Positions 28,143 through 31,566 of a DNA stretch of 64,000 nt are shown piece by piece. The stretch is from Candidatus Saccharimonadota bacterium (GTDB lineage Bacteria; Patescibacteriota; Saccharimonadia; Saccharimonadales; UBA4665), in NCBI GenBank assembly GCA_029288365.1, contig JARIHI010000008.1:124001-188000 (forward strand), in the 5' to 3' direction. Positions within the stretch are counted from its first letter, which is position 1. Each line of letters starts with the position of its first letter. Made by a program: the position numbers and the translations under genes. Below the pieces are notes generated by a model that ran no database searches, was not told the origin of the DNA, and was given only the letters and a program-made list of their open reading frames with translations.

Positions 28143-28171
28143 TTGACATATACCATTGATTATTCTAAAAT
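28143..28171 (+). promoter_or_regulatory. Near-consensus promoter reading into the ribozyme element
   Basis: A perfect -35 TTGACA (28143-28148), a 17-bp spacer and -10 TAAAAT (28166-28171) start 2 bp after the yraN stop. The predicted transcript begins near 28178, has a leader of about 155 nt, and reads through the two small genes toward the hammerhead. Confidence 0.75.
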
Positions 28172-28224
28172 AATATAAGATGTAGAGTAGTTTATATTCC
28201 ATCGTATATTGACAAACGGATTAT

Positions 28225-28281
28225 AACAAGATGAGGGTCAAAAATAACAAACGTGATGGTGTTTTTGACCCTCATCTTGTT
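28225..28281 (+). other. Perfect 20-bp hairpin in the element leader
   Basis: The 20 bases at 28225-28244 (start AACAAGATGAGG) are perfectly complementary to 28262-28281 (end CTCATCTTGTT), with a 17-nt loop. There is no U-tract after the stem, so it is not a standard terminator. It could protect the 5' end, act as a protein-binding site, or be a DNA cruciform recognised by a recombinase. Confidence 0.8.
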
Positions 28282-28312
28282 TCATCAGAGAAATACTGAA
28301 TACCTATTGTCT

Positions 28313-28329
28313 ACCTCTCGAAGGGAGGT
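28313..28329 (+). promoter_or_regulatory. Hairpin sequestering the Shine-Dalgarno of the first small gene
   Basis: ACCTCTC (28313-28319) pairs with GGGAGGT (28323-28329) around a GAA loop, 7 bp including one U-G. GGGAGGT is the Shine-Dalgarno of the ATG at 28336, so translation should depend on opening this hairpin. Confidence 0.6.
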
Positions 28330-28335
28330 GAGTGC

Positions 28336-28533
28336 ATGCGACGATTTAGCCCCGCATGGCTGGCAGGAACAGGCATACTGTACCTGGCAGTGGGTGTCGG
28401 ATTCGCGCTGGGTCGCGCAGTCGAGTCCAAGTACAGCAGTTACAGCGACTTCGTGGACCCCGAAGCCATCGACGAGGCGCTGGGATTCGCGATTGACATC
28501 TGCTTCTGGCCTCTCATCGTGTTGGACGACTAA
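28336..28533 (+). CDS. Small two-helix membrane protein of foreign codon style (65 aa)
   Basis: I do not recognise a family. The product has a basic start, a first hydrophobic helix (about residues 7-26), an acidic middle (YSDFVDPEAIDEA) and a second helix ending FWPLIVLDD. A strong GGGAGGTG Shine-Dalgarno sits 7 nt before the ATG. Codons end mainly in G or C (CTG, GTC, TTC, TAC, GAC), unlike neighbouring host genes, which favour A/T endings. It resembles the next small gene in length and in its W-P-L-x-V-L ending, suggesting a related pair. An actinobacterial or phage source is possible. Confidence 0.65.
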   Translation: MRRFSPAWLAGTGILYLAVGVGFALGRAVESKYSSYSDFVDPEAIDEALGFAIDICFWPLIVLDD

Positions 28534-28619
28534 TCCGGCACGAGAGCAGCAAGATTAAGTAGACGTCTAGCCAGTCCTGTCCTATAAATAGCTGTTCAAC
28601 CGAGAAGGGGATGGCGTAT

Positions 28620-28838
28620 ATGTTGGCAGCGCTTGTTGTGTACACGATTCTCAGCCTGGAGGCGGCCACGCTCGTCATGACGGACCAAGAGGCGGCTTCC
28701 TCTGAAGAGTACACGATTACAGACAGCGTGATGATCTTCGTGATCGTCGCAGTCATCTGGCCTCTCTTGGTGCTGGAGGCTTTTCATAAGCTCTTCTTCG
28801 TCTCCGACGTCAAGCTGATCACGCCAAGAAGCGTCTAG
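28620..28838 (+). CDS. Second small two-helix membrane protein of the element (72 aa)
   Basis: The product begins MLAALVVYTILSLEAATLVM, a membrane helix, then an acidic stretch (DQEAASSEEYTITD) and a second helix with VIWPLLVLEAF, echoing the FWPLIVLDD end of its neighbour. I chose ATG 28620 because GAGAAGGGG gives 9-nt spacing to it; an in-frame ATG at 28611 directly abuts that sequence. Codon use is GC-ending, as in the first gene. A holin-like, toxin or membrane-modulating role is conceivable, but no function can be read from the sequence. Confidence 0.62.
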   Translation: MLAALVVYTILSLEAATLVMTDQEAASSEEYTITDSVMIFVIVAVIWPLLVLEAFHKLFFVSDVKLITPRSV

Positions 28839-28877
28839 GGCGCAACGTATGGCAAGCGGGCTGTCAGATGAATAGAG

Positions 28878-28903
28878 TAGTAGCATTAGCTACTATCCTT
28901 TTT
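28878..28903 (+). terminator. Intrinsic terminator after the small membrane genes
   Basis: TAGTAGC (28878-28884) pairs with GCTACTA (28889-28895) around ATTA, then CC and TTTTT (28899-28903). It lies upstream of the hammerhead, so the ribozyme would be made only on read-through. Confidence 0.7.
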
Positions 28904-28936
28904 GTTCTATTTCTCTGAGAGTTCGTTTGTCATGTC

Positions 28937-28987
28937 TCGCTCCACAAATGTGCGTTTGTGCTGACGAGTCCTAAAGGACGAAAGCGA
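28937..28987 (+). ncRNA. Type III hammerhead ribozyme
   Basis: Every core element is present in order. Stem III strand TCGC (28937-28940) is followed by T28941 and C28942, the U16.1-H17 cleavage site. Stem I CACAAA (28943-28948) pairs with TTTGTG (28955-28960) around loop TGTGCG. The core CTGACGA (28961-28967) is followed by stem II GTCC/GGAC around TAAA (28968-28979), GAAA (28980-28983), and GCGA (28984-28987) closing stem III. Open stem III makes it type III. Loop I begins UGUGC and stem II is GUCC/GGAC, as in the well-studied satellite RNA of tobacco ringspot virus hammerhead. Self-cleavage is predicted after C28942. The 3' end is 8 bp from the convergent pepN stop codon. Confidence 0.88.
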
Positions 28988-28995
28988 TAAAAGGT

Positions 28996-31566
28996 TTATT
29001 GTTTGAAAAACTTTTGAACGGCGGCGAGGTCACGGTTTAACCAGTTGATACGGTTATCAATTTCCTCAAAACCTATTTCGATATTGCGCTTAAGCATAGT
29101 AATAGCTAACTTTGGCGTAAAGAAAGCGATAAACTTATCTTGCCACTGTTTAGTAGCGCAGGTACTTGCAGCATAACGAGGCCAATAATCCCACGATTTA
29201 TCGCTCTTATATGTATCTTCAATCCATTGCCAATTGTCTTCCATCCACTGCCATGCAATTTCGCGGATATGACGATTGCGCAGCATAAGGAACACCCAGC
29301 GGTCAGCATCTTGTGGTTTGATAACCTCGGGCTTGGTAATGAATTTTAGTTGTTTTTGGGCTGCATCAGTAGAGCGGGTAGCAGTGAGTGCGCCAGAAAT
29401 ATCTCGTTGTAGGTCGCTGCTGTTGGCTGTTCGATATAGCTCAAGCAGGTAATCTACTGCCCCGGGTATATTTTCCTTTACGGCTACCGTGAACGGAATA
29501 CCACGTAGCTCGGCGGAAATGATAGCAGAATTATCTTTGTAAGCTTCAAATAATTCCTTAGCTTTTAAGATAATCTCGGTATTTTCGGCGTATGCACCGA
29601 GGCCGAGTATAGTAGCGCGAAGCTTTTGGTCTGCCGGAGAATCAGTGTCCTTTTCATCCCAACCAAGCCGTTTGTATTCCTTTTCAATTAATTTTCGTAC
29701 AAGGCCTTTGATGTTTGCTTCAAGCGATTCATCGACTTCTACAAAGCGACGGGCATCCGCAATCACCAATGACATGACACCCCACACTGACTCCTCGGTT
29801 TCGTTGACATATGATTCAAGTAGCTCAAGGGTCTCGACGAACGGCTGATATCCGGCACGCCCTAACATTGAGCTGTCGTTGAGAAGCATCAAACGGTCAA
29901 TAGTAGAAATTTTTTGCGCTTTCACGAGTGACATAACATGCGTGCGATGAGCTTCTTCGGTGTAGCGCACAATGTAGTGGCCTTGACCTTCTCGGTTTAT
30001 GAGTACAAAATCGTCGGTATCAAGGGTAGTAGTAATGGACTTTGTATCTAATAGGTCTGGCACGTCAGGACGATTTGCAAATAATGGTACTGGCCAAACA
30101 CGATCTTTGTCGGCTTTATCCGGATTATCGGAGAAATGCTCCTGGGAAATAGTGAGTTGTTTGCCTTTTTGCGTAACGGTGAGCACTGGAAAGCCTGATC
30201 GTTCGAGCCAAGGGTTCATAAACTCACTTATATTTTTCTGGCTAGACCGGGATAGTGCTGCCCAGAGGTCTGTGCCGATAGTGTTTTGGTAGGCGTGTTT
30301 TTTAAAGTATTCTTGCAAGCCTTTTTGGAATGCATCTTCACCGATATATTTTTTGAGCATATACAGAAGACGTCCACCCTTGGCGTAGACAATTGATGGG
30401 TCAAAAATTGTGCTAATCTCATCTGGATGATGTACGGCAATTTTGACAGACTGTACACCAGGGACAGCGTCACGGCGAAGAGCGGCGAGCCCGTCAGAGG
30501 AAATATATTCTTCCCAGGTCCCCCATGTAGGGTTGCTGTGGTGCACAGATGCAAAGGCCATCATATTCGCAAAGCTTTCATTGAGCCAGAGGTCATCCCA
30601 CCATTTCATGGTGACCAGGTCGCCGAACCATTGGTGCGATGTCTCGTGGCCAATCACCTCGGCAATTAACTCTTTAGCGCTTTGAGACGCAGCTTTCGGG
30701 TCAAGTAATAGCGCAACTTCGCGAAATGTCATAAGACCCCAATTTTCCATGGCCCCTGCTGAGAAATCAGGTACGGCTATGTAGTCAACTTTTGGTAAAG
30801 GAAACGGAACTTTGAAATATTCAACAAAGTAATCATTGGACTGTATGGCGCTTTCGAGAGCAAAATCAAAGCGGTCTTCTGGTTGGGCAATTGTACCCCA
30901 AATTCCCACTTCTATTCCGGCCTTAGTTTTACCGGTTTTTTTGTGCAGCTCACCTGTCACAAAAGCCAATAGGTAGGTAGACATACGTGGTGTAGTATCG
31001 AATGTGGTAGTAGTTAAGCTAGCTTCAGTTGAAGAGTCTTTGATAGGCATGTTGCTGAGGGCGGTATAGTTGCTGGGATGAGTTAGCGACAAGTCAAACG
31101 TAGCTTTTGCCTCTGGCTCGTCAATACAAGGAAATACTTCACGGGCGTGATGGCTTTCGAGCTGAGTCATAAGTAGACTTTTTCGCTTGTCTTCATGATT
31201 GAAGAAACAGGGGTATAAGCCAGCCATTCCAGTTGTAATCGGTGCCTCAAATTCCAAATATACGGTGTATTGGCCTGGATAAAGCATGTCGTCAGTGTGC
31301 AAGCGCACTTCGTGTAGGGTGTTTTGAGTGTTGATGCGACATATAGCTACGGTCTCATTGCCTTTTTTATCATGTTTGGTAATTGTAGTTTTGGTGATTT
31401 TGAGGCCGTTTTGATGAAACGTCAGTCGTCTACTGGGTCGACCAATTTTTTTGCCGGTAATTTCCACTGATCCAGTGAAATACATTGTTTTATCACTGGG
31501 TATGATGTGTAAATTGTAGTGTTCGGGTTGAAATGTTTCGTAGAGTCGTTTTACAGATTTTGTCAT
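28996..31566 (-). CDS. pepN: M1-family aminopeptidase
   Basis: This 856-residue zinc aminopeptidase removes N-terminal residues from peptides, useful to an organism living on amino acids from its surroundings. It has the exopeptidase motif GAMENWG and the zinc motif HETSHQWFGDLVT followed by LNESFA, giving HExxH-18-E. The N-terminal beta-domain and long C-terminal helical domain are of normal size. I chose start 31566 (MTKSVKRLYE), since a minus-strand TACACT lies 8 nt upstream; an in-frame ATG at 31584 lies beyond that element. It diverges from nusA. Confidence 0.95.
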   Translation of the reverse strand: MTKSVKRLYETFQPEHYNLHIIPSDKTMYFTGSVEITGKKIGRPSRRLTFHQNGLKITKTTITKHDKKGNETVAICRINTQNTLHEVRLHTDDMLYPGQYTVYLEFEAPITTGMAGLYPCFFNHEDKRKSLLMTQLESHHAREVFPCIDEPEAKATFDLSLTHPSNYTALSNMPIKDSSTEASLTTTTFDTTPRMSTYLLAFVTGELHKKTGKTKAGIEVGIWGTIAQPEDRFDFALESAIQSNDYFVEYFKVPFPLPKVDYIAVPDFSAGAMENWGLMTFREVALLLDPKAASQSAKELIAEVIGHETSHQWFGDLVTMKWWDDLWLNESFANMMAFASVHHSNPTWGTWEEYISSDGLAALRRDAVPGVQSVKIAVHHPDEISTIFDPSIVYAKGGRLLYMLKKYIGEDAFQKGLQEYFKKHAYQNTIGTDLWAALSRSSQKNISEFMNPWLERSGFPVLTVTQKGKQLTISQEHFSDNPDKADKDRVWPVPLFANRPDVPDLLDTKSITTTLDTDDFVLINREGQGHYIVRYTEEAHRTHVMSLVKAQKISTIDRLMLLNDSSMLGRAGYQPFVETLELLESYVNETEESVWGVMSLVIADARRFVEVDESLEANIKGLVRKLIEKEYKRLGWDEKDTDSPADQKLRATILGLGAYAENTEIILKAKELFEAYKDNSAIISAELRGIPFTVAVKENIPGAVDYLLELYRTANSSDLQRDISGALTATRSTDAAQKQLKFITKPEVIKPQDADRWVFLMLRNRHIREIAWQWMEDNWQWIEDTYKSDKSWDYWPRYAASTCATKQWQDKFIAFFTPKLAITMLKRNIEIGFEEIDNRINWLNRDLAAVQKFFKQ

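Follow-up and report, generated by a model that had tools for sequence, protein, structure and literature searches.

Introduction

Hammerhead ribozymes have been known in bacteria since about 2011. Hundreds have been described from bacteria, with further examples from phages, and many lie near integrases or prophages without an assigned function; in Agrobacterium a triple hammerhead is found around ardA, and TM7 is not mentioned by Perreault et al. 2011 (PMC3088659). No paper on hammerheads in Saccharibacteria or the CPR was found in a search that left subscription literature and preprints outside its scope.

Here, a stretch of 64,000 nucleotides from the genome of a parasitic Saccharibacterium (contig JARIHI010000008.1, positions 124,001 to 188,000; hereafter the window) is analysed together with related genomes. 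Judged from sequence, what recurs is a GC-rich gene unit of mobile appearance that ends in a hairpin and a hammerhead. This hairpin-hammerhead module probably provides the 3′ ends of mRNAs from gene cassettes that have moved horizontally, the window unit among them.

A type III hammerhead beside pepN

The RNA encoded by positions 28937-28987 on the forward strand reads UCGCU-C-CACAAA-UGUGCG-UUUGUG-CUGACGA-GUCC-UAAA-GGAC-GAA-AGCGA, in which stems III, I and II comprise 5, 6-8 and 4-5 bp, respectively, and no core residue is missing. It contains CUGANGA ... GAAA, the A15.1-U16.1 pair and H17 at the cut; the topology is that of type III, with three stems, an open-ended stem III and compensatory changes among relatives. 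Cleavage is predicted after C28942, and the last base of the hammerhead is 8 nt from the pepN stop codon (28996-28998). When the hammerhead RNA is folded alone, the minimum-free-energy structure is ambiguous and the centroid is the hammerhead fold; the loop I and loop II types of this copy recur in its sister copies.

A covariance model trained on 26 hammerheads, all from other genomes, gave a single match in the 64-kb window, at 28937-28987 (64.9 bits, E 8.5e-16), and a structural scan of both strands returned one match in the real window versus none in 1.02 Mb of dinucleotide-shuffled window. The initial annotation had described a complete type III hammerhead ending 8 bp from the convergent pepN stop, and both statements stand: all core residues are present, the lineage model matches at the score given above, the shuffles are empty and the coordinates agree. 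Rfam is less sensitive. At the gathering threshold no hammerhead was matched in the whole window, and nothing beyond a weak match to Hammerhead_1 (19.9 bits; the cut-off is 34) emerged in E-value mode. RF00008, the type III model, recovers four sister copies, all below cut-off (best 44.5 bits versus 48.5); its gathering score, a database criterion and not a mechanistic one, is not reached by the window copy. The miss is due to the coverage of the Rfam models rather than to the absence of a ribozyme. The Infernal check that had been proposed for this locus was thus negative at the Rfam gathering cut-off and clearly positive with the lineage covariance model. A further claim, likeness to the satellite tobacco ringspot virus hammerhead, applies to the short loops and stem II; the rest of the unit is not viroid- or satellite-like.

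The empty Rfam gathering search could be taken to favour a chance match or an assembly artefact, but covariation, recurrence and the independent model match make the probability of either practically negligible, and the shuffles and the lineage model have already refuted both computationally. By its sequence, 28937-28987 is a genuine type III hammerhead of the self-cleaving kind.

Hammerheads in the same genome and in relatives

A search of the window's own genome (0.91 Mb, 8 contigs) yielded about ten hammerheads: seven of the window family, three of a second kind and one that is probably decayed. The pepN gene of this genome has its closest matches in Candidatus Saccharibacteria MAGs. The seven window-family copies differ in stem sequence while base pairing is kept, and the second kind has a short stem I and a long stem II. 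The initial annotation had tied a single ribozyme to a single CPR element; the tie to an element holds, and the view was too narrow given the copies in this genome and a family that extends across Saccharibacteria and other Patescibacteria.

The second subfamily is represented at L035 1517-2282 (G000:C4:58016-58781) and L032 1867-1919, with loop I UUA and a stem II of 6-8 bp. Two hammerheads of this kind, at C4:58034 and C4:58747, are 713 bp apart and close two different GC-rich ORFs. The probable decayed copy lies at G000:C3:58484-58538 (L031, L157; 47 bits, with a stem II mismatch). On the minus strand of G000:C4 (L033, about 2170-2750), a highly structured hammerhead unit has no convincing ORF and is possibly non-coding, and a similar promoter-like leader comes after it. 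Tandem hammerhead-ended units, up to six in 12 kb, occur among chromosomal genes at L205, L207, L208 and L218.

RF00008 gave sub-threshold matches in 12 of 60 genomes (the own genome and relatives) and in none of 14 control genomes. With the lineage model, the family was found in 103 of 393 genomes at class level, which represent 66 of 153 genera and carry as many as 14 copies each, and in 45 of 380 genomes of a phylum sample. Among 33 distinct, diverged members the core residues are invariant and the stems vary in pairs; stem cells are paired in 97.4%, both sides have changed in 13 of 15 pairs, and the covariation score is 0.785 versus 0.26 when shuffled, figures that lean towards pairing because the members were collected by a scan requiring stems. 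For the window copy, the RF00008 matches and the model trained with its own genome left out are independent of that scan.

Anatomy of the window unit

The unit that ends in the hammerhead spans 28143-28987, and its features, all on the forward strand, are as follows.

28143..28171 (+): sigma-70-type promoter, TTGACA-17-TAAAAT, 11/12 consensus, beginning 1 nt past the yraN stop
28179..28203 (+): predicted 5′-terminal hairpin, GATGTAGAGTA...TATTCCATC, where transcription is inferred to start
28210..28218 (+): possible 5′-3′ panhandle, 5′ strand, pairing with 28924-28932
28225..28281 (+): long leader hairpin with 20-bp arms, 28225-28244 and 28262-28281
28336..28533 (+): ORF 1, small membrane protein of 65 aa, GC3 0.72 (resident genes 0.39)
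28611..28838 (+): ORF 2, small membrane protein of 75 aa, with a GC3 of 0.76 and 28620 as another possible start
28848..28934 (+): long stable 3′ hairpin with 2 nt between its end and the ribozyme; also conserved in L008 and L009
28924..28932 (+): possible panhandle, 3′ strand; these bases also belong to the long hairpin (3′ arm)
28937..28987 (+): hammerhead ribozyme of type III, with C28942 as the last base before the predicted cut

The same genome holds two sister units, at L008 1735-2345 and L009 about 1420-1990, with matching 5′ and 3′ structures and no hammerhead; they encode a two-helix small membrane protein. The 5′-terminal hairpin (28179-28203) is present in both, with G-U/G-C changes, and sister units also carry a hairpin of different sequence at the position of the long leader hairpin. 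The ribozyme is not essential to the unit, since L008 and L009 keep the hairpin without it. The 98 nt around the long 3′ hairpin fold with -44.2 kcal/mol (z -7.8). Inside this hairpin there is a terminator-like site, 28877-28896 followed by CCTTTTTG, which might terminate transcription weakly before the polymerase has transcribed the ribozyme; the sequence 3′ of this site is conserved in sister copies.

A panhandle between the 5′ and 3′ parts of the RNA was rejected as a general feature of such units. The excess over swapped controls is modest (p ~1e-5; 22 of 84 units beat all swapped controls, with about nine expected), and the window pairing competes with the local 3′ hairpin at a pair probability of about 0.5. 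For the window it is kept as a possible alternative pairing.

Stop codon, hairpin and ribozyme

Nearly all of 107 collected hammerheads lie 3′ of an ORF, mostly a short and orphan one, and the distance from the stop codon of the longest upstream ORF to the cut has a median of 109 nt with a sharp peak at 80-140 nt. The sequence between stop and cut is far more stably folded than its shuffles (mean z -4.5, 87% below -2), as opposed to adjacent coding sequence (z -0.7, 18% below -2). Between the last paired base of this hairpin and ribozyme stem III the median distance is 2 nt, and in 84% it is at most 12 nt. Intrinsic terminators are scarce, with nine of 105 units having one before the ribozyme and nine of 105 after it.

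The neighbourhood downstream is much less uniform. Where flanks could be scored, the next gene is convergent in 44 of 105 units, at a median of 42 nt to its stop, and co-directional in 61. The reading that predicted cleavage would set the RNA 3′ end of the element beside pepN is retained; the associated suggestion that the ribozyme limits antisense RNA into pepN does not generalize, as only the 44 units just mentioned adjoin a convergent gene. Short spacing of this sort, 8 bp to the pepN stop in the window and a few tens of nucleotides at other convergent neighbours, is what would be expected if the hammerhead served mainly as an insulator or a regulated switch, keeping antisense transcription out of pepN. 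We regard this as distinctly improbable, because the majority of downstream neighbours are co-directional and because the position of the ribozyme is constant relative to the stop codon and hairpin upstream of it rather than to the neighbour.

Insertion and movement

Convergent yraN and pepN genes are found in other Saccharibacterial and CPR MAGs, with stops at most about 65 bp apart in nine of 15, and gaps, where present elsewhere, contain sequence of ordinary composition. Because the two genes often nearly abut in related MAGs, the window unit is read as an insertion. Its neighbours are housekeeping genes in conserved order, and the same is true of the array loci.

Movement of a unit can be followed in two genomes from different Saccharibacterial families, G201 and G233, which have a unit in common at unrelated loci with 86% DNA identity; its cargo consists of a small LAFTG-type protein and a glycosyltransferase. 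Alignment of the flanks places the homology between the promoter -10 region and the end of the hammerhead, from which it follows that the moved unit runs from promoter to ribozyme. All three stems of the two hammerheads differ by compensatory changes. Both the promoter region and the complete ribozyme lie within the aligned homology, which makes a cleaved RNA an unlikely template, and the unit probably moved as DNA. For the units, neither a recombinase nor a target motif or target-site duplication was detected, and two attempts at a same-genus empty-site comparison gave no base-exact boundaries, the relatives being too divergent. The label 'cassette' accordingly stands for one clear transferred pair and a patchy distribution.

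The bounds of the transferred unit also bear on the idea of a retrozyme- or viroid-like circular-RNA parasite in which the hammerhead would cut multimeric transcripts. Obelisks and retrozymes do pair hammerheads with units of about 0.6-1 kb (PMC4918200, PMC11922315), and the hammerheads at C4:58034 and 58747 are spaced like such a pair. Yet there is one hammerhead per unit, the tandem pair is preceded by different cargo, the bacterial promoter lies outside the cut RNA, and the transferred copies hold sequence that the cut RNA could not template, so that such a parasite is extremely improbable.

Cargo genes

Cargo ORFs vary between units, and five homologous pairs were present among the cargo proteins compared. 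Few have Pfam or PHROG matches, among them TelA, GH113, NUDIX, DUF350 and the Tad4 Thoeris inhibitor; another match is to a beta-glucan-synthase-like glycosyltransferase. One cargo protein has about 33% identity to lactic-acid-bacterial glycosyltransferases, and no plasmid homologue was found for the C3 cargo. A membrane segment is predicted in six of ten own-genome cargo proteins versus 14% of resident genes.

The composition of the cargo is strikingly different from that of the chromosome around it. In the own genome its GC3 is 0.76, compared with 0.39 +/- 0.04 in 44 window genes (maximum 0.48); over 60 genomes, cargo GC3 exceeds that of the genome's own genes in 91% of 89 scorable cases, by a median of +0.21. 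Cargo genes and the genome's own ribosomal-protein and polymerase genes have opposite codon preferences (AAG 0.90 in cargo versus 0.36), and TTA and CTA are absent from cargo. High expression as the source of high GC3 was rejected on the same grounds, the ribosomal-protein and rpoBC genes in the window having a GC3 of 0.38 and the opposite choices. A simple recent acquisition from Actinobacteria is not clear either, with AGA making up 30% of the Arg codons in own-genome cargo, and stronger Shine-Dalgarno sites in cargo were not supported.

U-A across codon borders, controlled for protein and codon usage, is avoided in cargo (0.49 in the own genome, 0.66 in others) and not in resident genes (0.93-1.03). 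A special longevity of the RNA was considered and rejected as the cause, because ordinary plasmid genes of Rhizobium (0.46) and Rhodococcus (0.38) avoid UpA as strongly, which makes resident Saccharibacterial genes the exception. The contrast between those resident genes, in G000 and relatives, and the two control bacterial plasmids (0.38-0.46) is an observation in its own right.

By composition, the cargo looks like genes written for, or acquired from, another kind of cell. A bold version of this would have the hammerhead-ended units as epibiont genes for expression inside the host cell, delivered as RNA or DNA and translated by host ribosomes. It draws on cargo codons and a UpA avoidance that resemble ordinary GC-rich bacteria and not the epibiont's own genes, on hairpin-protected RNA ends and on the conjugation-type T4SS of Saccharibacteria, which mostly lacks a relaxase and is reported to be essential for epibiotic growth (PMC12102498). 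We consider it highly improbable; foreign DNA gained by horizontal transfer is the simpler reading of the cargo data.

Phage hammerheads

A search of IMG/VR for the exact core-plus-stem-II pattern matched 86 contigs, 73 of which have structural type III hammerheads, 24 of these with two to four. The order is stop codon, hairpin, type III hammerhead, next gene; the median stop-to-cut distance is 40 nt, and stem II and loop types are the same as in the Saccharibacterial copies. A short hairpin was recognised by inspection in individual phage loci, and its end lies 0-1 nt from stem III. Individual loci (L283, L304, L334, L295 and others) have up to four type III hammerheads, typically right after a short hairpin behind a stop codon. 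The composition of phage cargo is normal (GC3 difference +0.03), and no phage DNA similar to the window element was found. From the sequences, the hairpin-plus-hammerhead looks like a general 3′-end module, and the Saccharibacterial units would therefore be its chromosomal, long-hairpin version.

The frequency of type III hammerheads with these stem II and loop types in phage contigs also invites a more modest interpretation, namely that the hammerhead was once, or is occasionally, a phage part, arrived with cargo derived from phages and does nothing essential now, and that 3′ ends come from the terminator-like hairpin at 28877-28896. That site does precede the ribozyme, and two sister units manage without a hammerhead. 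On the other hand, the core has stayed invariant in 33 diverged copies whose stems change pairwise, the two transferred copies differ by compensatory stem changes, and terminator-like sites precede the cut in only nine of 105 units; a dispensable phage part is thus unlikely.

Proposed mechanism of 3′ end formation

The proposal that hairpin and hammerhead together form the 3′ end starts from features read in the sequence: a ribozyme that follows a stop codon and a hairpin in about 100 units, cargo of unusual composition, and one unit, bounded by promoter and ribozyme, that has moved horizontally. What we infer from these is that the RNA is cut in cells, where exactly its 5′ and 3′ ends lie, that the hairpin protects it and by what means cassettes move. 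The window unit (28143-28987, about 850 bp) would be an autonomous cassette inserted between two convergent genes, yraN and pepN, and the hammerhead would be its last part. RNA polymerase would start at the cassette promoter and transcribe the structured leader, the two small membrane-protein ORFs, the long hairpin and the hammerhead, which is expected to fold during transcription and to cut after C28942. The product would be an mRNA of about 764 nt, the 3′ end of which consists of the long hairpin and an 8-nt tail (28934 to 28942) with a 2′,3′-cyclic phosphate, while the catalytic core leaves with the downstream piece, the ribozyme being of type III. The hairpin may then block 3′ exonucleases in the manner of a terminator hairpin with no terminator needed, and the cut would free the mRNA from the neighbours of the cassette's landing site. 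A module that replaces a terminator would explain why the geometry is fixed, why terminators are scarce, why gene and ribozyme move together, and why the fold of the ribozyme persists as its sequence drifts.

Comparison with known systems

The ribozyme itself is of a known kind. As far as can be told, what is new is the hairpin-hammerhead 3′-end module and the dispersed, foreign-composition cassettes that it closes, and the recurrence of this ending suggests a hitherto unrecognised bacterial route to mRNA 3′ ends. Stop codon, hairpin and type III hammerhead follow one another in the same order in phages and in some 100 Saccharibacterial units, which points to a specific and testable role, the formation of mRNA 3′ ends without a terminator. 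The cassettes form a class of gene units moving between Saccharibacterial families, with mostly unknown proteins and strikingly foreign codon usage. Such units can be listed across genomes by ribozyme search alone, and this opens a way into the accessory gene content of obligate epibionts.

With the bacterial and phage hammerheads described before (PMC3088659), the present ones share the catalytic core, the type III topology and, in some cases, occurrence in multiples. They differ in being scattered over the chromosome among housekeeping genes. Each gene unit has a single one, immediately preceded by a long hairpin and at a constant distance from the stop codon, and the cargo is of foreign composition. 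The type III hammerheads of IMG/VR phages are the closest parallels found, with the same succession from stop codon to next gene, but their hairpin is shorter (median stop-to-cut distance 40 nt versus about 110) and they sit in phage gene arrays with cargo of phage-like composition.

Retrozymes and Obelisks likewise combine a hammerhead with a unit of about 0.7-1 kb. Unlike a retrozyme, the window unit has a single hammerhead and not one at both ends, and unlike an Obelisk or other viroid-like replicon it is chromosomal DNA with its own bacterial promoter rather than RNA-only; general Pfam, PHROGs and NCBIfam scans of the cargo had no Oblin-1 among the matches listed. Phage morons have in common with these units an own promoter and 3′ signal, atypical composition and insertion between other genes, whereas the units described here lie outside recognisable prophages and end in a ribozyme. 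Finally, as with intrinsic (Rho-independent) terminators, a stable hairpin would be left at the mRNA 3′ end; most units, however, have no U-tract, and their predicted end would arise by RNA cleavage with a cyclic phosphate, the polymerase not being stopped.
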